Position numbers and translations under genes: made by a program. A model generated the notes under the pieces. That model was not told where the DNA came from. It searched no databases and was given only the letters and a program-made list of their open reading frames with translations. From Auricularia sp. M13 (Eukaryota; Basidiomycota; Agaricomycetes; Auriculariales; Auriculariaceae): DNA of 64,000 nt. Below are positions 517-48,409 of this stretch, in pieces (positions within the stretch are counted from its first letter, which is position 1; the number at the start of each line of letters is the position of its first letter). The stretch covers positions 3,906,001 through 3,970,000 of the forward strand of contig CM073197.1 of the NCBI GenBank assembly GCA_037042915.1. The letters are read 5' to 3'.

Positions 517-1999
517 TTAAGATAGCGATTGCGAGGGGCGAAGCGGCGCTGCATCCGGATATGCCTGAGGATCGCCGTCAGTGTTGCCTGCATGAGTTCC
601 CGAGCCGTTCTTCGGGGTCGAGCGTGTGCGCACTCGCCGCGCTCGCCATAGACCGGACACAATGTCGGTAAGTTTTCGCGGCGGTCGACGCGCGGGGACG
701 TTCCCTAAAATATACTCAATGAAATCATAACTGCGAATATGCTGCGGGGACGCCTTCAGCAGGCGCGGGGAAAGGGAGCGGCGTATCACATCGAACGCTT
801 CGACGACTTGCTGTGCGGTCGGTCGCTCGTTCGGATTTTCGCGCATCATGTGCTCTGCGAGTGGGCGGATGAACTCGACGTTGCGGTATGCCTGACGAAT
901 GTTTGGCGTCAATACGAAGCGAAGCAAGGAGAGTGCGCGTACGTTGAGGAGGTGGATCAGGATCATGTTGCCGATACAGTAAATATCAAGCTTAAAAGGG
1001 TCGTACGGCTCGGGCGATCGCTCTTCTGGTACCGAGTCGTCCTGCCCATATTGACGTCGCACGAGACGCCGCGCTGTCGCGTCGCTGAAGCGGATAGACT
1101 GATCGAAGTCGATGAAACAATATTTGATAGGCCGCGTAGCCTCGTGTCTGTGGATATGTCGAGCCTTGCCCTCTCCGGATGCCTTGCATTCTGGTCTGCA
1201 TGGGTGGTTGGGTTCGAGAAATAAATGGAGGCCGTCCATCATAACATTGCTCCAGGAGGCATCACTTCAAAGCTCGTATTAGCTTGAGCAAGAGCGAAAA
1301 CAGTAGCGATGTGACATACAGGTGAGCGACATTGTTTTCGTGCATGAATGCGATGCCCTGGCCCAATATGAGCACAGACGGAAAACCATGTAATGACGGT
1401 GCAAGTACTGTACCTCGAATAACTGGCCCAAGAAGTCGACGATTTCATCCACGCGTCGGAAAGGCCAGATATCCCAAGGAACCAGCCGAGGTTGCACCAT
1501 TATCACGTATGTGGGATAATCGTCTGGTCTGAGCAGCTCCAGAAGGGGGATGCAGTGATTTCGCGCATCCATTCGGCGGCTCTCTTCCGAGAAGTATTGC
1601 ATCATGGGAAGGGAGGACTTGTCGTTGTCAAGGTCGATAAGTTTCATGATGACGGGAGCGCCGTCTTTGACCCGTATTGCGTCCAATACATTATCTCTCT
1701 TCGGCCATGTCAATACTTTGATATACTCCAAAGCCGTAAATTGCGTACGATGGGCCAGATTCCGTCTTCGCACATGAGGGGAATGAGAATTTTTGGATCA
1801 TTGACCCAAGATCCAACCCAATCTTAGAGCATACAGCTTCAGCAAACCTGGCATGCACGTATATAACTGTATCCATACCGGGATGGTAACGCGGTCGCAT
1901 CCTGTAACCGTGTCGCTCGAAAAAATTGTGCAGATGCACCCAAATCATCTCGCCCTTGAGCCGTTCATTGAGAGGGTCTGGCTTGTCCGAGCTCGCCAT
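517..1999 (-). CDS. Kinase-like protein, copy A
   Basis: This is a protein-kinase-like fold protein of an expanded Agaricomycete family, split by about five short introns. The start is the ATG at 1999 (MASSDKPDP), aligned with the starts of copies B and C. Visible kinase landmarks are a beta-3 lysine in APVIMKLI, a catalytic-loop equivalent HLDASWSN (the H-x-D and the later N are kept), and YFIDFDQS in place of the usual DFG, so the motif reads DFD. A late conserved helix PNERPTAQQVVEAF matches the kinase subdomain XI region. No glycine-rich loop is evident. The C-terminal tail after about residue 350 is Ser/Arg-rich and ends in SQSLS. It is very close to copies B and C and lies head-to-head with a Ser/Pro-rich gene. 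Whether it phosphorylates anything cannot be told from sequence. Confidence 0.85.
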
Positions 2000-2336
2000 G
2001 TTATGCATCTGTGACCAGACAAGTCGGTCCAACTGGAGTGCCCGAGGTCAAGAAAGCCGACGCTGTGTCGGCCCGGCCCGATGATGCCAGATTGTTATAC
2101 ATCTCCGAACTTCGCCAGAAGAACCCACCGTGGCAACCTGGTGCATTGCACGTGCTTTCCGGGCCGCTTTACATTAGTATGGAACATTCTGGAAGAGGGC
2201 CGCGTAATCTCACCTCCTGGTATAAATGTTTCCTGGAACGCCTGGGTACTCATCATTACCATCTCGCGCCTGACCGGCCTGACCGCCCCATCTCCCGCCG
2301 CCAGGATGTCTTCTCTGGTTGCCAATATTGTCTACA
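2000..2336. promoter_or_regulatory. Divergent promoter region, kinase A / Ser-Pro-rich gene A
   Basis: This 337-bp stretch separates two divergent genes. A TATA-like TTTATAC on the minus strand near 2225, followed by a tract containing CCCTCTTCCAGAATGTTC, is also found at about 9380-9430 upstream of kinase copy C. This conserved segment is therefore probably the core promoter of the A/B/C kinase group. Confidence 0.45.
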
Positions 2337-3377
2337 ATGTCACTGCGCGTTACAAGGGGTCGTCCTCTCTTTTATCGGCGACTAGAACGGTGGCACCTGG
2401 ACTCAATCAACGCCGCGCTCAGGCTGGCGTCTCCGACCAACGACGAGCAAACGGCGCTCTGGGAGGCGCTCAACGACAAGTACACTCAGTACGGACATGA
2501 TACCTTAGAAATTATTCTCGCCTCTTGATACATCCACCCAGATATGAGAGACAGTTCGAAAAGCTGATACACGTCAACACTGACACCGAACCGGCGGTCA
2601 AGCGGCTCCATGGAGCAGTCACAAAGTTTAGAAACGAAATAGTGGTAAGATTTACCGTGTCTAAGGTTGGTCTGAAGTATCATGCTGAGTGTCGGGTCCT
2701 GTAGACGAAGTCGAAAAGGTTGAATTTCAACGTACCGCTCCCAAGCAGCTTGTGGCAGCATTTGTCTCGGGTACCGGGTTCGTGCAGCTTTGTATCGTTG
2801 ATTTGAACACGATGACAAGCCTTGAATAGATGAATCGAGTGCATTTGCGTCGGAGTCATACGTCCCAGAGCAGATCACCTCCGACCATGGTCTGCCTCGC
2901 AGACTTGCAGGACCAGCGGGGGCGCTTTCGTATCAGGGACACGTGCCTAGACATTCTCAATCTTTGACTTTCAATCCCTCGTCGTTCGCGCCTATCCTTG
3001 AAGAGAGTGCTCCAGTTGCGTTGGGCTCGCCTCACAGACCGCGACCAGCGGCGCAGGCATTCCACGCTGCCAATCCATCCATTTCCTCATCTTTTAGTGA
3101 ATCTCACCACGCCGCTCAACCGTCACACGGCCATAGTTTCTCTATCACTTCGGCTCAGACTTTCGGTCACGCTCAACAGGCTCTTCCCACGGCCAGGCAT
3201 TCTGCGGAGTCTCAGTCTAGCCGATCTTCTGGTTCTACTGGCGACTCGTATTCCGCTTATATAGAAAGCAGCATTCGGCAGAAGTACCCTGCTTGGACCG
3301 ATGCGCAAGTAGCTCAGGCGGTACAACAATATGAGCTCGCTAGCCAACAGCAGGGACATTCGTCTCGCTTCCAGTGA
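2337..3377 (+). CDS. Ser/Pro-rich protein of unknown function, copy A (model uncertain)
   Basis: I do not recognise this family. Coding segments seen are an N-terminal helical part starting MSLRVTRGR, a second exon with PPRYERQFEKLIHV, a third with VEKVEFQRTAPKQL, and a long Ser/Gln/Ala-rich last exon starting near 2830 and ending in QQQGHSSRFQ. Good splice sites join the later exons (GTAAGA near 2644; GTACCG...AATAG ending near 2830). Between about 2500 and 2530 the reading frame changes with no intron of normal size to explain it, so the copy may be damaged or the model wrong. The architecture (short helical N-terminus followed by a long low-complexity tail) is shared with copies B and C. 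It is transcribed away from kinase A and towards the TTL gene. Confidence 0.5.
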
Positions 3378-4232
3378 ACGAGGCAGGACAATGCCTTCGC
3401 TCACATGCGTACTTCCTTACATCGGCTTCCGACCGCTACCATTTCTCCCAGCGCCTCTATGCCCCTCATATCTCTTCCAACCCGATCTGGCATCGACTTG
3501 CGACGTTCCACTCAAACAGCCTCTCGAGAAAAACAATCAAAAAAACAACAAAAACGACGAAACCGCCCAAAAACAGTGTTTGATTTGATTTTCTTTCCCT
3601 ATGCCTCGTCTCGTCTCGTCCGTCTCGTCTCTGTCATCTCACCGCTCGATTCCCTCTCTTGCGACCGCCTGTGACTGGCTCCACTCCTCGGTGCTCGTGC
3701 GCACCATGCGCAACTTGGAGCCTGCCTTTGTCGTGTCATCTCTCCGTGCCTCGATCTCGAATGCTCACGACCACTGACGACTGAATCCCGCCTACGTACC
3801 GCAACGTGACTCAATGCGCAGTGCATCGCGCATGCTAAGCTTCTTCAATCAAAGGTTCTTGTTCACGGGCCCGGCGCCGATCGAATCGGATCGATACTGC
3901 TTCTCGGTATCTCGCCATTGTGTTTCCTGTATTCATTGTTCTCGCCTCGCGCTCGAGGCTGTACCGGTGCTGTCTGTTGTACTCGTTCTGCCTGTAGCAT
4001 TACACCATTGTTGTAGGATTAGCTGTACCTTCTACCCAATACTTGAGGTATTGCCTTATCTTCCCTGACAGTCTGAGAAACCTCATGAACAAAAAGATCT
4101 GCGAACGGGCGGACGAAATCATTGAGAAACAATGTCACGGTGCGGGCCCGCCGAAAGAACATCCATGCTTCTACGCTGAGAAGCTACAAACGCACACAAG
4201 GCTGCAGCGTGCTGCGCACGTTCTCCAAAAAA
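3378..4232. repeat. Duplicated 3' flank of Ser/Pro-rich gene A
   Basis: There is no gene here. The stretch is the shared 3' flank of the Ser/Pro-rich gene: an A-rich tract at 3525-3580 ending near CCAAAAACAGTGT, a run of CTCGT pentamers at 3604-3635, and a segment at 3870-4230 that matches 11830-12260 (inverted) and in part 45840-46260. The part next to 4233 also matches the 3' flank of the TTL pseudogene at 11836-12060. It is good evidence that whole blocks were duplicated, and not only the genes. Confidence 0.7.
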
Positions 4233-5592
4233 TTACCAGGCGCCGTGGCCGCGCACTTGGACCTCGAGACACTTCACGAGCCCGAAGCGCTCTTCTCCCA
4301 CGGGCCATGCTTCCGCGTCCTTCTCACTAGCATCGCCACCAGCACCAGGTCCGAAGAACGGAACGACGCACGCGCGCACGACGCCCTCGAACATCCTGTC
4401 CAGCGTCCACTTGAGCCGCTCGCCGGTGAGGTGCACGGCGGGCTCGGCGTTGAGTTCGAGCAGCACGACGCGCCCGTCCTCGCGCACGAGCAGGTCCGCG
4501 CCGAACAGCTCGAACGCGTTCGGCAAAGGCTGGAAGTGCGCGGCTCCCCCGTCCAGCACCGCGCCGAACGTCTCTGCAAGCAGCACCCGTGTCTGCTCCA
4601 CGATGCTGCTGTGGGATATGTGCGGCGGCAGGGGAAGCTCGGAGAGCAGGCGCACGGAGTCCGTGTGTGTTGAAGCGTCCTTTTGGAGCGCCGTGTTCGT
4701 TAGGTGGACCGAGAGGTCGATGTCGGATTCGGAGGAGGACGAGGGTGATGTGTAGGGTTTTGAGGAGAAGAGGGCGAGGATGTGAGGGGAGAGATAGAGC
4801 GTGAGTGCACCGCTGGCGATGCAGTATGCACGCAGGTGGAACTTGCGAGGCTCCAGGACAGCGGGAGGAATCGATCCCTCGATTGAGACGACGCGCGGGT
4901 CTATGAGAAGCGGGTCGGGGATGTAATCCTGAAATTTCATGAGCAGTATATCGCATGCCGAGTGAACGGCGCACCTGAATGACAAAATGGCGGAGCTGAG
5001 ACGCGACGACATTCGTATCGTCGCCCTCTTCCTCCTCCTCCTCCCCTTCCTCGAAGCTCTCCAAAATCTCACGCAGACCCTCCTTGGAAGAGAACAGTCG
5101 TATGCCCATCCCCCGGTCCGCCATGCCAGGCTTGAGGATGAACCACCTCTCCCGCTGCTCATTCGCATCGAGCAGCAGGCCAAGCTCGTACAAATCATCG
5201 CTCCACATCTCATCGAGCTCGTCCGCCCACGAGATGTCGACGTCCCAGCTCTGCGGCGTCCCGAGACCGGGCTTGAGCGCCGAGTCCGGGTGCTTCGCGA
5301 CGTGCACTGCGACGAGGCGGTGGAGGAAGTGCTTCCGGATGAGGCTCTTGCGGATGGTGTAGCTGCTCGCGAGCACCGTGCGCGGGCGCGCGAGCGTCAG
5401 CTCGTGCCGCGTGTCGTCGTAGGCCGTCCATTGCAGCAGGCGAGTGGACTGCGGAAGTTCTGCTGGCAGGGGAATCTCTGACCCGATCGCTAGCGATGGA
5501 CCGTAGACTGCATGCAGAGCGCGTGTGGCGAGGTCTTGAGTATATGCGGCAGAAGGGTACGAAACAATCGTTATATCCGGCGGCGTGAGCAT
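4233..5592 (-). CDS. Tubulin-tyrosine ligase (TTL) family protein, Pby1-like
   Basis: This is an ATP-grasp enzyme of the TTL family; fungal members resemble yeast Pby1. Two exons are separated by an intron at 4929-4974 and encode about 440 residues. TTL signatures in order are WFILKPGMADRGMGIRLFSS (ATP-binding lysine), KFHLRAYCIASGALTLYL, the segment LTNTALQ, FQPLPNAFELFGADLLV, and VVLLELNAEPAVHLTGERL near the C-terminus, which carries the metal-binding E and N. I chose the ATG at 5592 (MLTPPD) because a methionine at this place is also present in the pseudogene copy at 11431; an ATG eight codons upstream at 5616 is possible. An acidic run of glutamates lies near residue 185. The family ligates amino acids to tubulin or other C-termini; the substrate here is unknown. 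Confidence 0.88.
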
Positions 5593-5616
5593 GCTTGAGT
5601 CCAAGTCACAGTTCAA

Positions 5617-6211
5617 CGTTCAAGGTCCGCTTTAATGCGTTGTACACGGAGATGGGGGACAAATGATAATGATGGGAATCAGTGAGATCAAGATCATGGT
5701 CTTCACGAACCGAGCATTCATACTTTGCTTGGAGAAATATGATACTCCGAGAATTGCAGGAAATTCGAACTCACTGTAAGCGCGAGCCGACACCTCTGGT
5801 CGTTTCAAGTCCAGCAGGGTCCCGAAGCCCTCGTACAAAGATACTTTAGCTTTCCAAAGGTGATGGGGGTTCTTCCCGGCTATGGGGTCTGGTCGCAAAA
5901 CTCTGCACTTTTCCGATGGTCAGGATTATGGCAGGTCTGTACTCCTCCCCCAGCATCATGATTTTCAGGCTTGGTTAAAGTTGATGTATCGTAGACCAGC
6001 TGAACGAAAACCGAGTCCGGCACAAATCGCGTTCCAACCAACTAAAGAGCAAAGTAACTGGTGAGACAAGAATCCGCGGTTAAAATGTATCTACGGTGTA
6101 CACTGCGCCTGAACGACAGCAGCGAGGAGGAGAGAAGAGCGTCATGGTAGTCGTGGATAATAGACAGGGGATGCATACATATACCAAGGCAAGCAAGCGA
6201 CAGCGACCCTC
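5617..6211. repeat. Intergenic with relic of kinase-gene flank (5710-5885)
   Basis: Read on the minus strand, 5885-5735 matches 9207-9355, the interval between kinase copies B and C. In this block the relic leads straight into the TTL gene, whereas in the other block a whole kinase gene lies between relic and TTL. The rest (5900-6211) is the 3' flank of the Rab5 gene, with nothing recognisable. Confidence 0.55.
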
Positions 6212-7542: not shown

Positions 7543-9038
7543 ATGGGGCACTCGGACGATCCAGATATTCTCAACAAACGGCTCAAAAGCGAGATGATTT
7601 GGGTGCAGCTGCACGGTTTTCTCGAGCGAAACGGCTACAAGATGCGGCCGCGTTACCAACCGGGTACGCGTATTGTTCTTGTTCTTGCAATCCAGAATCT
7701 GCAACTGAATGTCGAATTGTAAGATTGGGTGGGATCTTGGGTTAATAACCCCAAGGCGCGGATCCCCCTCCTATGCGAAGACGGACTCTGGCCCATTGTA
7801 CGCCGTTTTTCTCTTCACCCAGTATGTATGCATGACTTATTTTTTGGGAAGAGAATGAATGTCTTGGACGCTATACGGGTCAAAGACGGCGCTCCTGTCA
7901 TGATGAAACTGATCAACCTTGACAACGACAAGTCCTCCCTTTCCATGATGCAGTATTTCTCGCAAGAGAGCCGCCGACTGGACGCGCGAAATCATTGCAT
8001 TCCCCTGCTGGAGCTACTCAGACCGGAAGAGTATCCCAGGTCTGTGATAATGATCCAACCGCGGCTTGTTCCTTGGGATGTTTGGCCTTTCCGACGTGTG
8101 GGTGAAATCGTCGACTTCTTGGGCCAGTTATTCGAGGTACAGCGGTTTCATGCTCCTTACATGGTTTTACGTTGGCGCTCATACTGTATCGGACCAGGGG
8201 CTCGCATACATGCACGAAAACAATGTGGCTCACCTGTATGTCGCATCATTACCGTCTCTGCCCTTGCTGAGGCTAATACGAGTTTTAAAGTGACGCCTCC
8301 TGGGGAAACGTCATGATGGACGGCCTCCATTTATTTCTCGAACCCAATCACCCATGCAGGCCAAAATATACGGCGTCCGGAGAGGGCGAGGCTCGACATA
8401 TCAACAGACACGAGTCCACGCGGCCTATCAAATATTATTTCATCGACTTCGATCAGTCAATCCGTTTCAGCGACGCGACAGCGCGGCGTCTCGTGCGGCG
8501 TCGATATGGACAGGACGACTCGGTACCAGAAGAGCAATCGCCCAAGCCGTACGACCCTTTCAAGGTTGATATTTACTGCATCGGCAACATGATCCTGATC
8601 CACCTCCTCAACGTACGCGCACTCTCCTTGCTTCGCTCTGTATTGACGCCGAGGTTTCATTAGGCTTACCGCAACGTCGAGTTCATCCGCCCACTCGCAG
8701 AGCACATGATGCGCGAAAATCCAAACGAACGACCGACCGCGCAGCAAGTCGTCGAAGCATTCGATGCGATACGCCTCTCCCTTTCCCCGCGCCAGCTGAA
8801 GGCGTCCCCCCAGCATATTCGCAGTTATGATTTCATTGAGTATATTCTGGGAAACATCCCTGCTCGGCGACCGCCGCGAAGACTTACCGACATTGTCTCC
8901 GGTCTATGGCGAGCGCGCCAATTGCGCCCACGCTCGACCCCGAAGAACGGCTCGGGAACTCATGCAGGCAACACTGACGGCGATCCTCAGGCATATCCGG
9001 ATGAAGCGCCGCTTCGCCCCTCGCAATCGCTATCTTAA
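7543..9038 (+). CDS. Kinase-like protein, copy B
   Basis: This is a close paralogue of copies A and C with the same intron layout. The start at 7543 (MGHSDDPDILN) aligns with copy C, where the equivalent upstream frame is closed by a stop. After the first intron the protein reads DWVGSWVNNPKARIP; the next intron starts at GTACGC after GLWPI and ends before RMNVLDAIR. Motifs are APVMMKLI (beta-3 lysine), HLDASWGN (catalytic loop) and YFIDFDQS (DFD in place of DFG). The C-terminal part ends RPSQSLS. The kinase core is open in all exons I could follow. Confidence 0.85.
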
Positions 9039-9610
9039 TGGTCCAACTTTTCTCGCTCTCCATTCGGTTGTCGTCCGATGCTATCGCGCTAGTGCAATGC
9101 ACTCTTTGATTGTGTCTGGATCTGAATCCCATGGCAATGCAAATATCTCTCGTCAAGAAATCGAAACAGGTCGTCGAAGCGTCCATTGCCAGTCCCTCTT
9201 CGTGAAGAACCCCCATCACCATTGGAAAGCTGAAGTACCTTTGTACTGACGAGGGCTTTGGGACCCTGCTGGGCTTGAAATGGCCAGAAGTGTCGGCTCG
9301 CGCTTACAGTGAGTTCGAGTTTCCTGCAATTCTCGGAGTATCATATTTCTCCCCAAAGTATAGCCCGGCTGCAGGCGATATTTATACTTGGCGGAGAGCT
9401 TACGCGTCCCTCTTCCAGAATGTTCTATCATATACCAAGCGGCGCGAAGAGCCCACGAGAACGTCGCCAAGTTGGAGCCAGACTGGATTCTTCTGAAGAA
9501 GTGAGTCGGAGACCACATGTCAACCGGCGAGTCGTCGGACTGGGCCGACGGTTGCGCCCGCGTTTCTTCCTGAACCTCTCTCGTACCAACCGGTCTGTTT
9601 ACAGCGTAGC
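9039..9610. promoter_or_regulatory. 3' flank of kinase B and promoter of kinase C
   Basis: 9039-9230 matches the flank of kinase A (330-516), and 9207-9355 matches the relic at 5735-5885. At 9380 there is TTTATAC, a TATA-like box, followed by a tract shared with 2170-2250 (promoter of kinase A). The C/T-rich leader with CTCTCGTACCAACCGG and TTACAG at 9598-9603 may hold a 5'-UTR intron ending just before the ATG. Confidence 0.5.
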
Positions 9611-11079
9611 ATGGAGAGCTCGGGCGCGCCAGATCCTCTCAATGAACGGCTCAAGAGCGAAATGATTTGGGTACATCTGCACGATTTTCTCGAGCGACAC
9701 GGCTACAAGATGCGGCCACGTTACCAACCGGGTACGCGTATTGTTCTTGCAACGCCGAGTCTGCCGCTGAATGTTGAGTTCTAAGATTGGGTTGGCTCTT
9801 GGGTCAATAACCCCAAGGCCCGCATTCCCCTCCTTTGCGAAGACGGAATTTGGCCCATTGTTCGCCGTTTTCTCTCTTCGCCCAGTGTCCATGACTTATT
9901 TGTGCGGAGAGAATCAATGTTTTGGACGCTATAAGGGTTAAAGATGGCGCCCCCGTCATCATGAAACTTATCGACCTTGACGACGACAAATCGTCCGTTT
10001 CCCAGATGCAATATTTCTCGGAAGAAAGCCGCCGCTTGGACCCGCGAAATCATTGCATTCCCCTGCTGGAGCTGCTCAGACCGGATGAGTACCCCACGTA
10101 CGTTATAATGATTCAACCGCGGCTGGTTCCTTGGGATGTCTGGCCTTTCCGACGCGTGGATGAAATAGTCGACTTCTTGGGCCAGTTATTCGAGGTACAG
10201 TACCGTCATGCTCCTTACAAAGTTTTCCATCGGTGCTCATGTTGGGCCAGGGCCTCGCATTCATGCACGAAAACAATGTCGCTCACCTGTATGTCGCATC
10301 GCTACTGTTTCCGCTCCTGCTCAAGCTAATTCGAGCTTTAAAGTGATGCCTCCTGGAGTAACGTCATGATGGACGGCCTACATTTGTTTCTCGAACCCAA
10401 CCACCCATGCAGACCGGAATGCACGGCGTCTGGAACAGGCGAGGCTCGACATATCAACAGACACGAGGCTACGCGGCATATCAAATATTATTTCATCGAC
10501 TTCGATCAGTCCATCCGTTTCAGGGACGCGACAGCGCGGCGTCTCGTGCGGCGTCAATACGGGCAGGACAATTCGGCGCCAGAAGAACGATCGCCTGAGC
10601 CGTACGATCCTTTTAAGCTTGATATTTACTGCATCGGCAACATGATTCTTGTCCACCTTCTCAACGTACGCGCTGTCTCCTTGCTTTGCTCCGTATTGAC
10701 GCCGAGAATTCGTCAGGCCTACCGCAACGTCGAGTTCATCCGCCCGCTTGCAGAGCACATGATGCGCGAAAATCCTAACGAACGACCGACCGCACAACAA
10801 GTCGTCGAAGCGTTCGATGTGATACGCCGCTCCCTTTCCCCGCGCCAGCTGAAGTCGTCCCCGCAGCACATCCGCAGTTATGATTTCATCGAGTATATTC
10901 TGGGAAACATCCCTGCTCGTCGGCCGCCGCGAAAACTTGCCGACATGGTGTCCAGTCTGTGGCGAGCGCGTCGCTCGGCCCCGAAGAACGGCTCGGGAAC
11001 TCCAGCAGGCGGCCCTTCTGGCGGTTCTCAGGCATATCCGGATGCGGCGCCGCTTCGCCTCTCGCAGTCGCTATCGTAA
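9611..11079 (+). CDS. Kinase-like protein, copy C
   Basis: The start at 9611 gives MESSGAPDPLNERLKSEM. Exons read MRPRYQP / DWVGSWVNNPKARIP, then GIWPI / RINVLDAIRVKDGAP, then QLFE / GLAFMHENNVAHL / DASWSNVMMDGLHLF and LLN / AYRNVEFIRPLAEHM, all with GT-AG introns of about 50-65 nt. Catalytic-type residues are the lysine of VIMKLI, the D and N of HLDASWSN, and DFD in YFIDFDQSIRF. It is tandem to copy B (570-bp gap) and followed in the same direction by a TTL pseudogene. The tail differs slightly from A and B (GGPSGGSQAYPD). Confidence 0.85.
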
Positions 11080-12766: not shown

Positions 12767-14345
12767 TCACTCAGGCCGCTTAGCCTTGGGGGCGAGATTG
12801 TTCACGTAGCTGCCAAAGTTCGGTGTATAAGGCTGTTGCGAAGACCCGGCGGTCGAGGGATCAGCAGCAGCATGTGAAGAACGAAACTGGGCACCAGCGA
12901 ACGGCGACTGCATCGCCGGGGTCAGCGCCACAGATGGTGTCGACTGCCCTCCGGGCACCTGGTTCAGCGGAAGTGATTGCGGAGGCACGCTTGCTCGGGG
13001 AATACCTGGTTGAAGGGGCTGCGTCGGATACAGCGTAGGATGCGGCGGCGGTGGGACAGGGTTGGACAAAACCTGCGGGTGGCCGAGCCCTTGGGTTGGA
13101 GACGGAGCAACTGGGTGGTACGGCGACGAGACAGTAAGCGAGCTCATGCTCTGGGCAAGATGGACAGTCGCTGGGTCGCCCGCAAGCCCCGACCGCAGAT
13201 ACGAGCCACCACTGGGAGCCGATGTGCGCTGCGAGTAGCCACTGCCCCCGGAAATGTTTGAATCTATCGACTGGCGTGCGGAGGCGTAATGACTGGCTGA
13301 TGTGGACACTCCGGAATCCATTGACGCACGGAAGCTTGCGCCAGAGCCAGAGCTATAAACAGACCCAGACCCAGAGCTTGACGAATGACTCTGTTGCGAT
13401 CCATGACCAAAGGCCGACGTACCGATCGATCTGACTGACGCTGTCTCCGCAGGTGCTCCTGCGCCGGGGAACACTCCTGTTGCAGGCATACCTCCTACAA
13501 TAGACGCTGCGTCGGCCATGGACGAGCTAGTTGCCGTCGCGGGCTTCCGAGGTGGAGGGGGCGACAACTGCGTCGGCGTGTGGAATTCGTTGGGATCCAA
13601 TTCCCGGTACGACGTTGAGTCGATGCTGATGCGTGACTGGGAGCTCAGAGCCTGTGCTCCGTGGTGGCTATGGTGCTGCACAACTGGTGCTACCGGAGGC
13701 GGATTTGGGCGACGCTGCGGAGGAATAAGAAAATGCACGAATACGCCTCGGTGATACATACCATAGGTCCTGTCTCCACGAGAGGCTTTGTACCTTCGAA
13801 TTCAATGTCAAATTTTTCATCATGGTCAGCTAATCAAAGAGACGCACTTGTAACCGTCACTGCTAGGTCGTATGAGAGGCCCAACATTCTCACGGCCGCA
13901 GTTTGTTTCTGGATCAAAAGTGTCATCAGCATCGACCCTGACGAGAACGATGAGACTTGCCGAAAGCTCCACCCGCCACGTAAAGATGTCCACCAATACT
14001 TTGTCGACGTTCTCGAAATCCGGAGATTTGCAGGTTTTGAGCAGCCGAACGAATCTGAGCGTCCGTTAGCACAAGAGTCTGGGCGTGGATCCACGAATCC
14101 ACGCACTTGTTATTCTGCGCAGCAGCCTCGTTGTAGACACGTAACGCTGGTTCTGAGTACTCGAGCTCCGCGATTCGTGCAGGCCAATCATCCACAAGGC
14201 TCTCCTGGACCGTGCGCATCTGCGCCTCGCACTCCTTGTACTTCGCTTCTTTAGAGTAAATGCGCCACTTTGCGACCATGACCTTGATGATGCCGTTCGA
14301 GATTTTGGTCTTTAATGTCCTCTCGGGGGGAGATAGCGACTGCAT
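12767..14345 (-). CDS. Ser/Pro-rich protein of unknown function, copy B
   Basis: The family is not recognised. The start is the ATG at 14345 (MQSLSPPERTLKTKISNG). The first exon is helical and polar (IARIAELEYSEP-like pattern, ending RVYNEAAAQNNK), then a GTGCGT...CTCAG intron leads to FVRLLKTCKSPDFENVDKVL. A later segment reads DDTFDPETNCGRENVGP. The last large exon, from about 13759 to 12767, is very rich in Ser, Pro, Gly and Gln, with patches such as SSSSGSGSVYSSGSGAS, and ends NFGSYVNNLAPKAKRPE. That ending is related to NFPTYSNNINRGM in copy C. The layout suggests a folded N-terminal domain with a long disordered tail. It is divergent from kinase copy D. Confidence 0.7.
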
Positions 14346-16230: not shown

Positions 16231-16371
16231 CTCTGACGTCGTGCTATCGCATGCTATGACTTTTGCTGTGCATGGATCGTGTTCTCCGCTTGCTGTACTG
16301 TAAATATCTTCAACTCGGATCTTCAAACTGTGATTCATTCGAATTGCAAGTATTTCTAACCTCATCCTAGT
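16231..16371. other. 3' flank of kinase D
   Basis: This is a short 3' flank. The last part, with CCTCATCCTAGTGCCG, begins a homology to 35640-35736 that continues into the next feature. There is no gene. Confidence 0.35.
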
Positions 16372-16870: not shown

Positions 16871-16879
16871 GATCCTGCA

Positions 16880-35736: not shown

Positions 35737-35754
35737 CATCACGAAATCCGGCCG
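35737..35754 (+). repeat. Left terminal inverted repeat
   Basis: The 18-bp CATCACGAAATCCGGCCG is an exact inverse of 43633-43650. The match stops after this point. Confidence 0.9.
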
Positions 35755-36009
35755 AACCTGGTACCGCGTTGCGGACTTGATAAGATTCCGATCAGGCTTG
35801 CGTCATCTTGCAACGCATTGCCAGCCATCGCAGGATCCTCGCCAGACTTGCGACGGCCTTGTAACACAGTAAACTCTTGTGTCTGCATTGTAGTCCATGA
35901 TAATGTCTTGAGAAGTATTGCCCGACTTTACAATTCCCCTGAAAGGCTTAAGGTCGGATTGCCGCCACTTTTATTGCAGCTGATTTGAGACGGTTCAACA
36001 GCTACTGCA

Positions 36010-39000: not shown

Positions 39001-40119
39001 AGCTTTTGCGCGCGCAGCGAATGATAAGCCTCGCCGTAGGTACGGACCTCCCGACCATCAGGCATGCGATACATTAGCTGAGACGGTGTCCAAGTCCAGT
39101 TCTGAGCATCTGGATTATTCTCAATCTCCTTCTTCCAGAGCGGAATGAGTGGGCGCCGCTGGAAGCCGTCGATTGGCACAGTGACCGGTGACTTGTCTTT
39201 CCCGCCCGGAATCGTAACATTGACCGAATGAGAGATCCAACCATCACCGAATTGGCCCAAGTCGCCAGCAGCTTCACGGTCAACCTGTTTCCAATTGACG
39301 TCGCGGAGGTCATCCAGGGAGAAACTAGGGTCCAGGATGAGGTCGAGCAGGGTCTTTCGACTGTCGCGAGTCTTTACTGAGCCGTCATTCCAGAACCAGT
39401 GATTGAACAAGGCGGCGTTGCGATTGGGATAAGGATAGTAAGATACCGGTCCGTCTTGGACCTTACTACCGTGTGCTGCAGTTCCCGTTTGGTCTGGATC
39501 ATGCTGGGGCTGACGGCGAAAGACGCGAAAAAGACCAAAAGCATTCACGGCGGTGCGAAAAGGCTCGTATACATTCAGAAGTAGACGCCTGACACCAGAC
39601 GGAGCAGGTTCAGCAGGTGCCAGAGGTTCGGGTGCAAGATCTCGGAACTTGCGTGGCACGTGGTGCTGCGTGCGGTGACGAGGCGCAAGCACTTCAGGCG
39701 TGGGATCAACGGCAGCAGTAGAAGACACAGTTGCCATGCCCGGAAGAGGGCCAAAGTCCGAGTCTGACGTGGGCTGTTGAAAGCCGTTGTTGAAGGCGTC
39801 AATCTGCGATCGGTTAGATTTGCACAGTACGTACAAACACTTAATGTCTAAACGAAGTACTCACAGAGTCGACATCCATAGCCGCATAGTCCACTGTAGA
39901 AGAGCCACTTGAACCCGCTGATGAGGCCACAGGAACAGCAGCAGGCGCCAGCGCCTGGGTGGTGCGGGCCCGCTTTGCAGCTCGAGCAGCGGACACACCT
40001 GTTTGCGTAGCGCGCTTGTTCAGGAGTTCCTGACGGTGCAGCTTATGAGGAGCACACGTCTGCTGATGCCCCTTCAAGTGTCCTGCATCGAAATCTCGGC
40101 CGCATTTGCATTTCGGCAT
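36010..40119 (-). CDS. Plavaka transposase
   Basis: This is a DDE-type transposase of the fungal Plavaka group (CACTA-related). The start at 40119 gives a zinc-finger-like N-terminus, MPKCKCGRDFDAGHLKGHQQ followed by TC. Family hallmarks in order are PYPNRNAALFNHWFWNDG, LRDVNWKQVD, MQGSDGTHLAQFG (first catalytic Asp), RRFYPRFFSYIADYPEK, CPCPRCTVKKDEIHNLG, FTVDLLHEVELGVWKALL (Asp and Glu), LLPEPHN and YGTTESYST. A C-terminal part (ARVLGIYHVKAYH, FLHVRWFGRD) and an acidic tail ending DDMYDLDYFV follow. About nine short introns with good GT-AG sites keep the frame open throughout, so the gene looks intact. The protein should bind the terminal repeats and cut and paste the element. Confidence 0.88.
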
Positions 40120-40393
40120 GCTGGGGTTGAAGCAGAACACGACACGAGCGGATATGAGACGCGGCCGGTATATCCCGAAACCGCGTCACCGCGTCATCCC
40201 CGCTCTGGTGCTCATGCCGGGCACCTGCGGAGGCACTGGCTAATACCGGTGTTGTGTGCGTGTGTACCCCTCACGTGCATTTGCCCGGCATTTGCCTCAG
40301 ACTCAGCTGCTCGCCGAGTATAAAAGGCTCGTTGCTCTCGCAGGCATTAACCCACTGCCTCCCCTCGCGAGCGCATTCCAGCACCAAAGCCCC
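40120..40393. promoter_or_regulatory. Bidirectional promoter between transposase and DUF6698 gene
   Basis: This 274-bp interval separates the two start codons. TATAAAAGG at 40319-40327 is well placed (67 bp) for the plus-strand DUF6698 gene. No equally good TATA box is seen for the transposase. Confidence 0.6.
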
Positions 40394-41836
40394 ATGCCAT
40401 CCTCTGCCTCTACCACCACATCGACTGCTCCATCCGGAGCACAGAGCAACGGCGCCAGTGCACGCAAGCGTGTTGCGCCTGAGCTCACACGTAGTGGCAA
40501 GAGGAAGAAGTGCGTGTATTTACGCGTCTTTACGCGTCTTTACGTGTTCTAACATAGTTTGCATGTTCTCAGAGCTGATACCAGTCTGTGGGTTGACTAC
40601 GGTCGCATCTACGGGCGCGCGTACAATTTTCTGGACCCAGCGGGATTCATCTTCGACCTCGGGATGGAGATTTCTATTGATCGCGCATCGGCAGAGGAGG
40701 CCTGCGAGGACTACGAAGTAGATGAGTGGTGTGTTCTGACTTATATCCTATGCCATCTCTAATTGCCGCGAAAGTGATCGCCGTATTGAAGTCGCGTTCA
40801 TCGCGCTTGAGAAAGAGCTGAGGGCCAAAGCGCCTGAGGCCCTTAAAGACATGGACCTGGCGGCAAAGATCACCTTGCAGGTTCGTCATGATTAGTTACA
40901 ATGCGCTGAGCCTCACCGATGTCTTGTGCAGATCGACGACGGTGTCAGCAGGGCCAAGACCGACGACACCCACTCCCTCAAATTGGCCATCGTGGACTGG
41001 CTCCCCCGCATCGATGGCGCCCCTCAGCTCTCGAGAACTAATAAAGCCGGCCGTGGGTTTAATCACCCTGCAACAGGCCGCTTGCTCATTCCAGCCGGTG
41101 TGGTTTGGACCACGGAGTACGTGTCTGCTCGAATTTGCGTCTCCTCATCGATTTTTACATGGTCTCAGGCTTCAAAAGAAGATCCAGGATGGCGAGCTAT
41201 CCTTTACTGGTGAGGAATGGCCCAATCTCATGTTCAAGGACGAGAAGTACAACCCAGAAGATCCTTGGGACGGCTTCGGCAAGAACGAGTACGCCGTAAA
41301 GGTTAGTTATTTTTTTTTTTTCTCCTCATTCGCACTCATTGACATTGACTCTAGTCGTTTAAGCATTTTTTCACTAGCCCCTCGTCTGTCGAAAAGGAGA
41401 ACGACGGGGGGAGTGGAACATCGCGCAAGGGCAACGCCGAAATCCACGGTTATGACGCGGTCACAGTCGGTGCTCTGTGTTATGTTCATTCTCATGTGCG
41501 TCTCATTCATCTCTCCCTTGAATTAGTATTTATCATGCATGGCTGTAGCTCAAATTCGCACTTTCCTCCTCTTCCACCTTCTCGAAGACGGATAGCACGA
41601 AGAATGGCGATCTTGCGGCGTTTTATGGCTCACTTTACGAGTTGCTGACAGATCCAGAGGAGAAGGAGAACGTTGACGAGCTGCTCAAGTGGTGGAACAA
41701 GCGCATTTTCCCTTCAGCGCGCCGCACGCGCGAACACTCCGCAAAGAGCACCCGCGAGCAGTTCCGCCGTGTACGCGAGGCACGTGCGGCTGCTGCCCAG
41801 GAAGAGAACGCTCAGGAGGAGGATGCAGATGAATAG
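40394..41836 (+). CDS. DUF6698 protein carried by the transposon
   Basis: This is a protein with the Agaricomycete domain DUF6698, function unknown. The ATG at 40394 (MPSSASTTTSTAPSGAQ) lies just downstream of a TATA box. Spliced exons read RKK / ADTSLWVDYGRIYGRAYNFL, VDE / CDRRIEVAFIALEKEL, ITLQ / IDDGVSRAKTDDTHSLK, then GRGFNHPATGRLLIPAGVVW, FTGEEWPNLMFKDEKYNPED, SFKHFFTSPSSVEKEN, and LKFALSSSSTFSKTD, ending with LLKWWNKRIFPSARR and an acidic C-terminus. Family signatures are RGFNH..TGRLL.P, W..........FTSPSSVEKE and FALS....F.......WWN..IFP. All introns are 45-80 nt and in phase, so the gene seems intact. It is divergent from the transposase inside the same terminal repeats, so it is cargo or a partner of transposition. 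Confidence 0.82.
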
Positions 41837-43632
41837 TCTTGATATCGCACCTGGATTTGCCTCAGTGGCCCAGATTGTAACCTGTCCATACAAAATATTA
41901 AATATTACAAGACTCAGCCTCGCGACGCTTCGGCACAATGAGGGGAAAGGCTGAAAATACGATGATTAGACTGCGTTGGAGTATGAGAGAACGGCAGAGC
42001 ACAGGTTATTCAAGCGTGGCGGCGGTGGGAAATACTATCGTCTCGGGCGCGTAGAGCAGAGGTAGAGACTTGGTCAATATGCCCCCAACACTAATCGCCT
42101 CAGTGAAAATACTAATTCTGAGCAACTAGTGAGATCAGCTGTACTTTTATGTTTGAACCAAGATGAATCGTACATGGTAGTATTGGCGTGACAGCTTTCA
42201 GATACGTCGAGGACACCACTACGGCAGCGGTATTTACCTCAGTTACTGCAGCTGTGAGACACCGGAGACGGACGGACCTACGATACCGCTTGGGCCGTGG
42301 ATGGTCATGAGTCAGAGCTTGGACCAGCTGGGTCAGTTGTGTATATAAGACAGCGGTAGTGAGAGCGGCCCCACCGTCGGTCCTAGAGCAGACTAAGAAC
42401 ACAAACCAGAATTCCTAATGTTCGTCATATGGTTAATATAAGGGTAATCGCACTGGAATGTCCGGACTTGCTCATACTTCGCCAAAAAATGCATTTACCT
42501 TATACATTTCTATTCCCATAGGTATTTTTGCTTACGTTTGACTCCCTGACTGGGCTATCCTATGTGGGACTGTCGGGCGATGCGGGAGAACGCCGGCATC
42601 AATCTCCTCCGCAGCGGTTGAGTCGGACCTTGAATCGTTGCTCTCCTCCACTCCACTCGCTCCCACTTACCCCCACGCCATTCAGGCCGCACCTGGTGTC
42701 GCCCTAGCTCCTTGCTGGGGAACTACTGCTGCCCACTGCCGTTTGGTGCTCTGTATGGCCCTGGGACCTTCGGCTTGCATCTGCTCTGGTTCGGCTCCGG
42801 CGAACTGTCTGCAAGCTATTGTCTTGTCTCTAGGCTCCTGCGTGCCGCGGTCTTGCTATGCTGGCTCTGAGTCTTGTGCTTCTGCCGGCTGTGTGGCGTG
42901 CTTTGGGTGCTTCGGGATCTGGCGCGCTGCTAGGCGTTTGGGTACTGACACTTTTTTTTTCCAGAATTCGACCGCTTTTCTCGAAGGCATCCCGCGGGAA
43001 CGCACGCGTGCACTGCACAGGTAGCCAGAAATGCTCATGCTTACACAGTCCTGACCCTTGCTGTTAGATTCCTCGCTCTCGCTGTCAAGCAGCAGTTCAC
43101 GCCTCAAAGGTCATCCCTCGGGCAGCCGCGTCGTCAAAGCCGGTGAGTCGCATCAGCGCGCATCTCGCATCGTATGCTCACGATAACATGGACTCGGCAG
43201 ATACAAGTTGTGCTTGCCAGCATCTCGCCCCCGCAGGGCATTCGCGGCGCCGCAGCTTCCTGGGGTCGTCGAGGCACGTGGTATGTGGTCCGTGCAGGCA
43301 TGTACCTAGCTGTTGTATTATGCGGAATACACTGCTTTACATTTACTTGATGTGTCCGTGCTGCCGTGAGCGCGAGGAAGTGGAACGTGCGTCGCACTGG
43401 TATCTAAACCTACAGCCTAATCGTGCATTTGCAAGCCATTACAAGATACGAGAACAAGTGTAAAGATTGGCAAAGCACGAAATCATTGCGTCACTTGGCA
43501 AACCATCACAAGGCTGGTGGGACCTTGGCAATCCCGACCGGGCAGCGTAAGGCATCACAAGATCCGCCACAAGACTTGTGGTGCTTACAACGAATGTGAA
43601 CATTATAATCCGTGGCAACAAGTTGTACGATC
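41837..43632. other. Gene-less right part of the Plavaka element
   Basis: The first part is the 3' flank of the DUF6698 gene. No open frame here shows domains or spliceable exons. TATATAAG at 42341-42348 could be a promoter box with no visible gene behind it. 43435-43632 is the right subterminal region with repeated CACAAG/CATTACAAG and TTGCCA-like motifs (inverse of motifs at the left end), probably transposase-binding sites. Confidence 0.5.
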
Positions 43633-43650
43633 CGGCCGGATTTCGTGATG
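43633..43650 (-). repeat. Right terminal inverted repeat
   Basis: CGGCCGGATTTCGTGATG is an exact inverse of 35737-35754. It is followed by the target AT and by sequence homologous to 16441 onward. Confidence 0.9.
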
Positions 43651-43652
43651 AT

Positions 43653-43884
43653 TGTCGGTGACTATGCACGTGTACACCTCACATCTTTCCAGGCGCTCCG
43701 TTCGCGCTTCTGCCATCGATCTCATGAGTCATCGATTTTTCTGGGAGGCGTCAATCTCTCCTACATCTGTGCCAATCGAGGACGATCAGTTGAGTTCGGC
43801 GAGTACGGGAGCTTTCCCGGTCTATCGTATAAATTTCTACGCCCCCGTGTCGCTTGACCCACCATTCTTACCCTTCTCGAGGCC
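43653..43884. promoter_or_regulatory. Promoter region of Ser/Pro-rich gene C
   Basis: It matches 16441-16640 (GGCGCTCCGTTCG.GCTTCTG, CAATCTCTCCTA). CGTATAAAT at 43825-43833 is a good TATA box, 52-60 bp before the ATG. The transposon inserted just upstream (43650), leaving about 230 bp of promoter. Confidence 0.6.
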
Positions 43885-45619
43885 ATGTCTAAACCCGGCA
43901 AATCTCCCTCGGCAAAAACTGGCCCTTCTGCATTAGGCAAGGCAATGAACTCCTTGTCTAATGCGGGGTCATCGTTCAAGGCGACCTTCGAGACCGATGA
44001 AGACCTACGCGCAGACACATCAGGCCAGTTGAGCGCGGCATACAGCTATCTAGTCGACAAGATGAGAGACCGTGCCGTCACCGCGGAAAAGGTCCAAATC
44101 TACAACACGAAAGTTCGTGAATACAACGAGTGCGTCCAGACGACCACCATCACATAATCGACATCCCGGCTGACGACATCATCGCGTAGCTACGTGGATG
44201 AATACTTTAAATGCAAGGTGGCCGACCTCTATGGCATCCAACAACTTTACGACGAAGTTAGTTCTTGGCGGCTTACCATGGCAGTTCGTTGGTCTCGTTT
44301 CGTCTTGCTTCACTTATGCTGATGGATGTCGCTTAGAACCGGTCCGTGACCGACGGTCTACTACAAGACGGGGAGTTTGCGTACAGGCACAACGCCGTCC
44401 TCAAAAGTACTCTTACTCTCTCGGAATGTAACTTACGCTTGTTGCTGATACAATGTTAGCGACCGCCGATCCTAAGCGTTTGGAAGAGAAAGTACTGGTT
44501 CGTGCCCGCATCCCACGATTACTCAACAATCGCTAATAATCAGTAGGCCGTTCCTCAAACGACGGCTGGGAGCGGATTGTCAACGGCTCCTAGTGGATTT
44601 TCAACGACGGCTCCGAGTGCGTCGTCGGCGGCGCCGTTTACTAGCTACCACCACAACGTTCTTGACCGATGGCCCGGACCGGAGCCGGCGCCGTCGTACA
44701 ATCCTGTACCGCGCAGTGCTCAATATCTGCCAGTCTCACCGTCCGCAATGCCCGCCGTTCAGTCTCCAGCGCAGGGACACCCGTTGTCGGGCAGTGCGTC
44801 GGCGACATACTCGTCTTACTCGACCACGACACGACCGGTCGACACGACATCTCTGAGGTCCATGCAGAGCGCAGGCTCAGGAAGCAGCCATAATCCAGGC
44901 GGTGCTGATTCGTTCAACACCTTCGGGGCTTCTGCCGAGGATGATCGTGGCTCTGACGAATCAAGGGGAAACCAGGGCGGGAGGGCGGGCATGGTGACGA
45001 AGGGGCGGAAGTCGGGGTCGTGCTTGCCCGTCGCGTCGCGCCAGGTCGGTATGGAACGCCCCGTGAATCCTTTGACTCGCAGCAGCACGCTGCTTACCTC
45101 AGCCGCTCCGCGCAGCCGTCTGTCTATGCGAACTCTCAGCTTGGGAGGAGCAGCGCCTCTCTTCTCGCTGGGTATCCTGGAGGCTTGCCCCAGCAAGGCA
45201 TGGGCTATATGCAATCTCCGCAAACTCAGGCTGGGCATGCTAACCCCCGGTCCGCGGACTGGTATCAGCTGAATCCCCAAGGTGCTTCCCTCTACGCTGG
45301 GCCTCCGCCGCACGGTGGGCAGCCGGCCCATTATGGGCATCATCCTCATTTCGCGCAACAGACCGTTCCCGCACCGCAGACTACCCACGCTTCTCCGAGT
45401 CAGAATCCGCAACTCGTAGGCTCCGGGCAGGCGACCTCACCTGCAGGAAGACTCTGGCCACAGGTTCCGATGATCAATCCACTGGCTGGCGCGCAGCCCC
45501 GTTCTTCGCAGGGCGGTGCTGCTAATCCTTCTGCTCACGGTGACCAGCCGTCTTCTTCCTCTCAGTCGTCCCAGCGCAATTTCCCGACCTACTCTAACAA
45601 CATCAACCGCGGAATGTGA
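43885..45619 (+). CDS. Ser/Pro-rich protein of unknown function, copy C
   Basis: The start at 43885 (MSKPGKSPSAKTGPSALGKA) follows a TATA box. The N-terminal exon is helical (LSAAYSYLVDKMRDRAVTAE, VQIYNTKVREYNE). Later exons read YVDEYFKCK / VADLYGIQQLYDEV and NRSVTDGLLQDGEFAYRHNA. From about 44560 a long Ser/Pro/Gln-rich exon follows. Near 45000 the coding signal moves to another frame (from AEDDRGSDESRGN to RYGTPRESFDSQQHAAYL); a small intron or a frameshift must lie there, and I could not find a splice pair that fits. It ends NFPTYSNNINRGM, related to copy B. The family is not recognised; the architecture suggests a helical N-terminal domain with a disordered tail. Confidence 0.6.
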
Positions 45620-46394
45620 GCTTAGAGGCTCTGTCGTTAAGCTTCCCATCCCTGTCTCTTTCTTGGCTCGACGTACAGATCGTGTGCTCCCTCAGCTTCG
45701 CTCTCTCCATTGCCTCTGACGTCTCACTATCTCGCGCTGCTCCGGAGTGTCTGCTCTTTTTCTTGACTGCGTTTCTGGCTGTGCCAGGCTCTATGCCCTC
45801 ATCTGTTCCTGCCTGATCTCTCCCGCGATGTGCACTTGCACTTCACCTCCTCAAGTGTCGTCAAGAAAACTTCAAGAAAACAATCTACAAAACGAGCAAA
45901 ACGAAGAAACCCCAAAAACAGTGTCTGATTTCCTGTCTCGTCTCGTCTCGTCTCGTCTCCATTCTGCCGCGCACCTCTGCGCACCGTTCCGTAACGTCTG
46001 CGTCGCATCGCCTCGTCTTACTAATGACCTTTATGACTGACTCCCCACTCCGAACTCGAAGCCATTCGACGCGCAGCCGTGTGTCGTGTCCGCTTCTCTT
46101 CTTCCCCATGCTCTTCGGCCCGCGACTGGTCGATCCAGCATGATTGTTGTTTTTCCGAAGCGCTCGCGGGTTCGTACCGGTACTGCCTGTAGCGTTGTCG
46201 GATCCTGTAGTAGTAGTAGTGGTATCCTCCAATACTCGATGTATTGCCTTATATCTTGAGCGACGTGCGTGAGCAAAACCCTGCAGCCATTGCGGACCAT
46301 GTAGGCGAGTGCCACAAACCAGACACAAAGTGAGAACAATGCGCGATCGATATCGATCGCGGCGACCGGGGAAATCTGTGCAATGACAAAATGC
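45620..46394. repeat. 3' flank of Ser/Pro-rich gene C (A-rich tract, CTCGT repeat)
   Basis: This is a conserved flank of the duplicated block. It holds the A-rich tract at 45863-45925 ending CCAAAAACAGTGT, CTCGT pentamers at 45936-45960, the segment 45984-46200 shared with 16640-16870, a short GTA trinucleotide run at 46203-46217, and GTATTGCCTTAT shared with 4050 and (inverted) 12030. There is no gene. Confidence 0.65.
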
Positions 46395-46800
46395 GAAGCC
46401 AGGTGTTTACGGGACACCCGCAGTTTTGGTTCCCGTGTTTGCCCGGGCACGCGCATCTGGACCCCCTACCACGCCACGAAGAACGCTCTTTTCCCACCAT
46501 CGATGCTTCGGTCCGACTCGGCACAGAAGAACAGAGTGAGTCACGCCAGCAGTCGGACGCCCTCGAACATCGAAGATCTTGTCCAGCGTCCACTTGAGCC
46601 GATCTCCGAGTCCAGTGATGTGCACGACAAAGGGCTCGGCCGCGGCGTTGAGCTCGAGTAGCCACGACCGTCCTTGCGCACCGCATAGCGGTGGCTGTAC
46701 TGTCTCTGCAGTACTTGCCAGCAACATGCAGATCTGCTGTGCGAGATGAGCAGGAGTAGCAGTGGCTCGGGCGGAGTCAACGGCTCCAGGTCTCTCCGAA
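46395..46800 (-). pseudogene. TTL pseudogene, copy C
   Basis: This is a remnant of the C-terminal third of the TTL gene. Readable pieces include SWLLELNAAAEPFVVHITGL and RLKWTLDKIFDV, equal to VLLELNAEPAVHLTGERLKW in the intact gene, followed in another frame by a VGPKHRWWEKSVLRG-like piece equal to the WPVGEERFG end. The N-terminal two thirds, including the ATP-binding lysine region, are gone, and the frame is broken several times. It lies between Ser/Pro-rich gene C and kinase F, in the block order seen elsewhere. Confidence 0.7.
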
Positions 46801-46970
46801 TTAAAGCTACAATGTTGATTCGCCTGAGTGCTTCTCAACAGTTAGGCGTTCCATGAAATCCTTGCCCGAAATCTCAACAGATGCATTACTTAGTAAAGGG
46901 ATGCATTGGGCGATCTTGCCGCGTACGCACATCAAGGGAAAGCAAGCATCAAAGCACGGCGGAGAGAGCG
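46801..46970. other. 3' flank of kinase F
   Basis: 46918-46945 (CGTACGCACATCAAGGGAAA) is shared with 34070-34098, the 3' flank of kinase E. There is no gene. Confidence 0.45.
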
Positions 46971-48409
46971 TCAGAGCAAAATAGAATGAGGGCGGGTGCG
47001 CGACGAGAACTGAAGTTGGGATGGGGTGCCGGAAAAGGATGATCGGCGCCTGACGGGCACCTCGCGCGCGGGAGCCTGTCCCAGGAAAAACTCGCACCAA
47101 TCATAACTGGAAATGAACCCGGGGCACGCCTCCAAATCCACACGAAACAACGTGCGACGGATTTCAGCAAACCGAGAGACCACTTGCTGCGCTGTCGGCC
47201 GTTGGGCCGGGTCGGGATGGATCATGTCGGACACGATTGGACGGACAAATTCCACGTTGTCGTATGCCTGCAAAAAACGTTAACGGTGCGCAGAAGCTCG
47301 GAACGGCGATGGGTACTCACGTTCAAGATGTGGGTCAAGATCACGAATCCGAGACAGAAGATGTCATACTTGAACGCGTCGTAGGGCGGCGAGCGAAGTT
47401 CGGGCGCCTGCGTCACCTGGCCCTTCTCCGGGTTGACGAGATATATCGAGGCCGCATCGCGGAAGCGGACTGACTGGTCGAAGTCGATGAAATAATACTT
47501 CACGGGTCGCGTGCTTTCGAAGCGTTCCCAATGCTGGGCTTCCCCCCGTGCATCGGACCTAAGCCTTGGATCTGCCGGGTGACACGGCTCCTTAAAGAGG
47601 TGCAGGCCATCCATCATGATGTTCGCATGCGAAATATCGCTGCAAGGCTTGTGAGCATATCAGCGGTCCCTATTACACCGATCAGGACATACAGATGGGC
47701 TGCAAGGTGCTCATGCATGAAAGCCAGTCCCTGTGGGCGCGCAAGTCAGGATCATTTTGAACAATCATGTGTAGCTGTGAAGTAAACCTCAAATAATTGC
47801 CCCAGAAAATCGACAACCTCGCCGACCTGAACGAACGGCCAGACGGCCCAATCCACATACCGCGGGAGTACGAGCGCCACACGTCCCGGATGCACGTCCT
47901 GTGGGATTGGGAGGACATCGAGTAGAGGGGCGCAGTGGTTGCGAGGGTCCGATCTCCGAGGCTCGCAGCAGAAATAGGACGCGAAGGGTATGGAGAGCAT
48001 GTCGTATCCAGGATTAATGATCTTGAGCATCACGGGCAGGCCGTCCGCGCGTGTGGCGTCCAGGATGTTCCATTTCTGTGGACGCCGACATGTGAATACA
48101 TATGCAGAGCAAGAAAATGCTCAGTTTCAAAACTCACCGAGAAGGACAGTCCATCTTCGAAGTCCTGCCAATAGAAGAGCCGATGTTTGCGCTCGAATTC
48201 TTCCCGCATCGGGAGCCAGGAAGCTACCCAATCTATAGCACGAGATTATTTCAGAGGCAGACTTGGTGCACCTTGGGTCCTTGACTAGTACCTGGATGGT
48301 AGCGTGGTCGCAGTTGATATCCCTGAGCCAGAAGAGCTTCATAGATGTCGGCCCATTTTCTTTCGACGCTGCCCAGGTCGCCCGGGAACCTGTTGGACCG
48401 CGATTCCAT
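46971..48409 (-). CDS. Kinase-like protein, copy F
   Basis: The start at 48409 (MESRSNRFPGDLGSVERKWA) aligns with copy E. Exons read QLRPRYHP / DWVASWLPMREEFERKHR, EDGLSFS / KWNILDATRADGLPVMLKII, FLGQLFE / GLAFMHEHLAAHL, a DISHANIMMDGLHLFKEP exon and ILN / AYDNVEFVRPIVSDM. The DFG site is DFD (YFIDFDQSVRF) and the catalytic-loop Asp and Asn are present (HLDISHAN). Differences from E include VILTHILN and a VNPEKGQV segment. The tail ends SSRTRPHSILL. It is tandem with the LIM gene on the same strand. Confidence 0.83.

Follow-up and report, generated by a model that had tools for sequence, protein, structure and literature searches.

Yeast Pby1 is a decapping activator that carries an N-terminal SurE-like domain, as described in PMC8984151. 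Transposons of the PlavakaB type have CATCA..TGATG ends and a target duplication of 2-3 bp according to PMC12730594. Among protein kinases, the FslK group, which is expanded in agaricomycetes (PMC3937382), and the FunK1 family (PF17667) are both multi-copy kinase-like families of fungi with local duplications. Here we relate these systems to a locus of the basidiomycete Auricularia sp. M13, in which a TTL gene resembling Pby1, kinase-like genes and Ser/Pro-rich (SP) genes, partly in decayed form, lie side by side in several copies. The analysed stretch of DNA, hereafter the window, comprises 64,000 nucleotides of contig C5 (CM073197.1 of assembly GCA_037042915.1, positions 3906001-3970000); C5 is 4.4 Mb long and the genome comprises 52.1 Mb in 14 contigs. 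Judged by its genes, with a Plavaka element, DUF6698 and short introns, this DNA is probably that of an agaricomycete. Among the literature matches listed, judged by titles and the beginnings of abstracts, there is no account of such an arrangement of TTL and kinase segmental duplication in basidiomycetes, and no literature on an expansion of FunK1 kinases in Agaricomycetes was found.

The locus holds seven kinase-like genes with open models (A to F within the window and G across its left edge), one intact TTL gene, two TTL relics and three SP loci (SP1 to SP3). We consider it likely that this arrangement arose by local, old, multi-step segmental duplication around a single-copy PBY1-like gene, and that the three families stand together because they were neighbours. 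The original prediction, made from the letters of the window, had described a three-gene block of kinase-like, SP and TTL genes that was duplicated at least three times. The genomic copies are real, but they are better described as four SP/TTL relics together with separate kinase duplications. The features of the SP/TTL part of the locus are as follows.

4233..5592, minus strand: TTL1, intact PBY1-like gene with two exons (4975-5592 and 4233-4928), 437 amino acids
11395..11810, plus strand: TTL2 relic, 5' end joined to 3' end, with the middle of the gene gone
46443..46681, minus strand: TTL3 relic, a C-terminal coding fragment
2283..3374, plus strand: SP1, Ser-rich open reading frames (ORFs) between kinase A and TTL1, gene model uncertain
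12767..14342, minus strand: SP2 of block 2, last exon in 12770-13801 and N-terminal exon in 13929-14342, splicing approximate
43858..45619, plus strand: SP3 of block 3, splicing approximate
3530..4232, no strand: convergent 3' intergenic region of SP1 and TTL1, homologous to parts of 11661-12276 and 45877-45978
45877..46214, no strand: 3' intergenic region of SP3 and TTL3, homologous to 16646-16884
16356..16884, plus strand: fourth relic, consisting of kinase-E upstream flank, an empty transposon site, and SP 5' flank joined to SP 3' flank

TTL1 matches the Pfam family TTL (PF03133) with 128.3 bits (cut-off 20.1, E 4e-37), and its residues 9-406 align to yeast PBY1 (PDB 6y3z; also 6y3p) as the closest solved relative, with an E-value of 3.5e-61. 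It differs from yeast Pby1 in that the 437-residue model contains no SurE-like N-terminal domain; a Pfam scan gave only TTL and weak ATP-grasp matches. No further TTL gene was detected in the 52.1-Mb genome by a six-frame search with Pfam TTL, the two matches from two scored candidates being the two exons of TTL1. Nor was TTL-flank DNA found elsewhere when the genome was searched with the DNA of 3500-5900, since all seven matches (7/7) lie at this locus, one of them being the query itself. Because TTL1 is the only TTL copy found in the genome, it is probably kept by selection too. The decay of the copies is unequal, as had been predicted: one TTL gene is open and two are pseudogenes, one SP gene has left a scar, and the kinases are open.

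The genome contains further members of the kinase family, but neither TTL nor TTL-flank DNA was found outside this locus. The link between the three families, which the original prediction had left without explanation, is therefore best read from the sequence as neighbours that were copied together, not as a functional cluster. A protein search of the genome with SP2 at E <= 10 likewise recovered only SP2 itself, although this search was too weak to recover even SP3. If, on the other hand, a kinase, an SP partner or substrate and a PBY1-like enzyme formed a functional module that was duplicated as a unit and later dismantled, this would account for the like order and orientation in three places, for the constraint on the kinases and for the still recognisable C-terminus of SP2 and SP3. 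It would leave unexplained why TTL or its flanking DNA was found only at this locus although the kinase family is multi-copy, why open kinases accompany the two TTL copies, out of three, that are dead, and why kinase A is not the block partner (see below). We hold a functional module to be improbable.

The extent of the copies was established by blastn self-comparison of 94 kb of contiguous sequence. Homology reaches past the exons, so that the unit of duplication is genomic as had been claimed, with non-coding matches down to an E-value of 1e-86. This value belongs to the match of 3764-4404 with 12276-11661, which is mostly non-coding, shows 69.5% identity and bears out the predicted inversion of one copy. 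A further non-coding match links 16646-16884 with 45989-46214 (76%, E 3e-42). In total, the SP/TTL 3' neighbourhood occurs in four places, at 3.5-4.4, 11.7-12.5 (inverted), 45.9-46.7 and 16.6-16.9 kb, here numbered 1 to 4. Drawn more widely, the four stretches extend over about 3.5-5.6, 11.4-12.8, 43.7-46.7 and 16.36-16.88 kb, respectively. These flanks pair as (1,2) and (3,4), because 480/695 and 186/226 aligned bases, respectively, are identical within the pairs, as opposed to 55-58% in the four cross pairs. Note that shuffled flanks gave values of 0.61-0.77 by another alignment method and with unequal lengths for the pairs involving relic 4; several of these exceed the observed cross-pair values, so that blastn E-values were relied on there and no significance is claimed for the cross pairs.

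The fourth relic corresponds in collinear order to 35652-35736, 43651-43801 and 45981-46214, and is unbroken where block 3 is interrupted twice. The original prediction had recognised an SP locus reduced to an empty scar. The scar exists, with a joint at about 16639-16660 and a short overlap (short homology) at the joint, yet it belongs to this separate fourth relic, from which the SP gene is missing. The other blocks have an SP-like gene in the corresponding position, which makes a deletion likelier than an insertion. Could the copies be an assembly artefact or uncollapsed alleles? The sequence itself gives no sign of this, the copies are only about 55-90% alike and differ in orientation and in their insertions and deletions, and the contig that carries them is 4.4 Mb long. 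We regard an artefact of this kind as extremely improbable.

One of the two interruptions of block 3 is a transposon, in accordance with the original prediction:

35737..43650, minus strand: PlavakaB-type DNA transposon of 7.9 kb, with Plavaka transposase exons on the minus strand and DUF6698 exons on the plus strand

The element has perfect 18-bp terminal inverted repeats and is flanked by an AT target duplication. Its transposase domain is recognised at 38515-38763 (38.8 bits, cut-off 26.3) and, slightly under the cut-off, at 38781-39860 (24.6 bits). With its CATCA..TGATG ends, its 2-bp target duplication and its Plavaka transposase it resembles PlavakaB as characterized in PMC12730594, from which it differs by carrying DUF6698 exons; a dioxygenase was not matched in its seven scanned ORFs. 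The DUF6698 exons, at 40896-41210 and 41549-41833, are apparently transposon cargo. The left end of the element matches five other places in the genome and the right end four. The empty site is readable in the fourth relic at 16435-16453. Its preservation there dates the insertion of the transposon to a time after the split of the third and fourth relics.

The third family comprises the kinase-like genes, for which negative coordinates denote positions left of the window start:

-1363..72, minus strand: kinase G, 393 amino acids, open six-exon model from locus L038 joined to the window, with the start codon of exon 1 at 72; only 1..72 lies inside the window
517..2008, minus strand: kinase A, 407 amino acids, six exons
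7543..9038, plus strand: kinase B, 404 amino acids, six exons
9611..11079, plus strand: kinase C, 400 amino acids, six exons
14781..16230, plus strand: kinase D, 392 amino acids, six exons
34121..35524, minus strand: kinase E, 385 amino acids, six exons
46971..48409, minus strand: kinase F, 384 amino acids, six exons

These models are predictions, made by hand from GT-AG sites. Six open copies had been claimed, and all six are indeed open, with G as a seventh. When the spliced products of two of the seven copies, C and E, were scanned against Pfam, kinase E exceeded the cut-off for Pkinase (PF00069; 35.8 bits, cut-off 31.7, E 7.5e-9), and kinase C fell slightly under it (29.3 bits). Single-exon ORFs of A, B, C and E reached 17.4 bits at best, and the two largest of kinase A matched no Pfam family. 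FunK1 was considered as the kinase family and rejected: neither C nor E matched PF17667 at E <= 1, and all four genome matches to it lie elsewhere (0/4 at this locus). In the numbering of kinase G, the residues K90, H177-L-D179, N184, D230-F-D232, P257-E258 and R307 are invariant in five aligned copies and present in 7/7. We take the lysine, HxD...N, DFx and PE to be the catalytic residues of kinases, with HRD changed to HLD and DFG to DFD, and judged by these motifs the catalytic Lys, Asp, Asn, Asp and Glu are presumably kept in all seven copies. A Gly-rich loop was not seen by eye. A profile built from five copies matches solved kinases (14 distinct sequences, E <= 0.01) over about 30-43 residues only.

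For the kinase tree, 19 rows were used, i.e., the seven locus copies and 12 others of the same genome, after three pieces scoring <90 had been dropped; two of the non-locus rows have very long branches and one row is only 37% filled. Members of the family outside the locus reside on contigs C8 (many), C1 and C7. The locus copies split into (A,B,C) with 100/100 support and ((D,G),(E,F)) with 100/100, within which D+G received 94/88 and E+F 100/100. The kinase of block 1 had been taken as the counterpart of those in blocks 2 and 3. According to the tree this does not hold: the partner of D is G, and A is no counterpart of D and E. In the self-comparison, similarity among A, B and C extends through introns and flanks for 1.7-1.9 kb (81.6-86%), and that between E and F covers 1.6 kb at 76% (34003-35566 with 46853-48467); the 3' flank of G contains sequence common to A and B. 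We infer that kinases A, B and C and the E/F pair were duplicated separately, each unit of 1.6-1.9 kb taking its flanks with it, either later than the SP-TTL copies or independently of them.

The closest kinase pairs are under purifying selection. The NG86 ratios of non-synonymous to synonymous substitutions (dN/dS) are 0.27 for A/B, 0.18 for A/C, 0.20 for B/C, 0.17 for D/G and 0.21 for E/F. The ratio test proposed along with the original prediction is thus passed, because with values of 0.17-0.27 none of 500 bootstraps (0/500) reaches 1 in any of these five pairs. The remaining 16 of the 21 pairs have dS >= 1.9 or were not computable. Selection had been predicted for the kinases only; constraint on the kinases is found, whereas the word only is not upheld, as TTL1 is the sole TTL gene found in the genome and SP2 and SP3 share a C-terminus. 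An account that would give the kinases the leading part, as compact self-copying units (1.6-1.9 kb, their own flanks included) independent of the block, kept at a rearranging locus for the benefit of variety, as in self/non-self recognition, and with the SP proteins as fast-changing partners, appears very improbable to us.

The prediction of an SP gene in each block applies in part. The C-terminal 120 residues of SP2 and SP3 score 101 as compared with a shuffled mean of 47.5, and no shuffle out of 1000 scored as high; for the N-terminal parts, 9/1000 shuffles did. By this sequence comparison SP2 and SP3 are homologous. SP1 agrees with them in position and 3' flank only. The stop codon lies about 240 bp from the common 3' flank in both SP2 and SP3, compared with about 150 bp for SP1. 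Of the 11 matches obtained in a genome search with the DNA of the SP3 region, one was the query, four lay at this locus, four fell on the transposon end at other places and two corresponded to short stretches within SP3. One such stretch, 44976-45048, matches C8:1798135-1798210 at 91%, and part of it also C4:4424748-4424802 at 84%.

Two copies of a repeat, X, were recorded:

5720..5878, minus strand: repeat X copy 1, upstream of TTL1, matching 9361-9201 at 90%
9201..9361, plus strand: repeat X copy 2, between units B and C

In block 1, about 130 bp separate the start codon of TTL1 from repeat X upstream of it. In block 2 the kinase C unit (about 9361-11227) separates the repeat from the 5' end of TTL2, and its start falls about 10 bases or less from where the repeat ends (9361 or 9372). 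ARAGORN, run with the bacterial code, called a tRNA-Phe at 9243-9334, which was weighed as a landmark; this call is probably false, because it falls within repeat X and because no Rfam match was obtained in the window at gathering scores.

Several observations weigh against a history of local stepwise copying. The tree lends modest support to a single origin of the kinases: a branch with support 80/79, recovered in 83% of 200 bootstraps, has all seven (7/7) on one side. For intron 2 of A, B and C the acceptor had to be set two bases along, at an AG that keeps the frame open, since the alternative acceptor runs into stops. Protein similarity of SP1 to SP2 and SP3 is at chance level, with 127/1000 and 164/1000 shuffles scoring as high for the C-terminal 120 residues; for the N-terminal pieces of SP1 the figures are 288/1000 and 970/1000. 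Either the SP genes are fast-evolving or SP1 is something else. The copies of repeat X are 90% alike, as opposed to 65-72% for the adjoining TTL pieces, and this excess likeness needs an extra copy or conversion event. Finally, the ages conflict. D and G, which represent blocks 1 and 2 best among the kinase pairs, have a dS of 1.18, and their introns align barely above shuffled sequence (0.606 vs 0.587), while the SP-TTL flank of blocks 1 and 2 is still 69% identical (K about 0.40). Either D and G stand outside that copy event, or the 3' flanks have been constrained or converted.

The same discrepancy bears on the idea of one common three-gene block, which was not confirmed: the kinase tree, with A beside B and C, and the non-coding divergences do not yield one history, although gene conversion could mask a common one. 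A single block event cannot explain all ages unless conversion or constraint acted on some of the parts. If a single block was duplicated and the tree was later blurred by conversion (A with B and C, E with F) among neighbouring kinases, it would be understandable that A/B/C and E/F lie near each other and are alike over whole units including flanks, that the 3' flank of G is common to A and B, and that G and D pair up where this history expects it. Conversion would then have to span the introns and flanks of whole 1.6-1.9-kb units, and it would not provide for the position of the kinase C unit, which separates repeat X from TTL2, as no kinase stands at the matching place of block 1. Such a history is possible but rather doubtful in our view. 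Pieces of the locus differ in age, and we thus regard it as a mosaic of several events, in keeping with multi-step duplication around the PBY1-like gene.

Other features were noted in and near the window. Two F-box proteins, about 30% identical, are encoded at 17944-19431, right of relic 4, and at 51656-52945, right of block 3; their genes may have been copied along with the neighbourhood, or may stand there by chance as two members of a larger family. The window also contains a GYF-domain ORF (25109-26011), a LIM-domain ORF (49692-51050), a helicase-C ORF (58525-60585) and short direct repeats at 62531-62834 with 81-84% identity. Left of the window, from -19930 to -5002 (L039, L038), inverted and direct repeats are dense, up to 3.2 kb long and 81% identical; five ORFs scanned from this DNA had no Pfam match at E <= 0.01.

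Under multi-step duplication, the ancestral neighbourhood would have consisted of a conserved PBY1-like TTL gene, a convergent, fast-evolving SP gene and one gene of the multi-copy kinase-like family. Parts of this neighbourhood would have been copied three or more times, presumably by ectopic recombination, with one copy inverted. Decay of the TTL copies would have followed, one copy being enough, although the order of losses is likewise presumed; one SP gene would have been deleted, with short homology at the joint, and the PlavakaB transposon would have entered one copy. The inactivation of TTL2 may owe something to the kinase C unit that stands between its 5' end and repeat X. Taken as a whole, the locus is a compact record of copying, inversion, invasion and erosion. 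Events of this kind are ordinary and imply no new biological system; what is unusual is how neat the record is and that all seven kinases were retained. The fates of the copies were unequal, in that the duplicates of the single-copy gene were lost and the neighbouring multi-copy kinases were retained.

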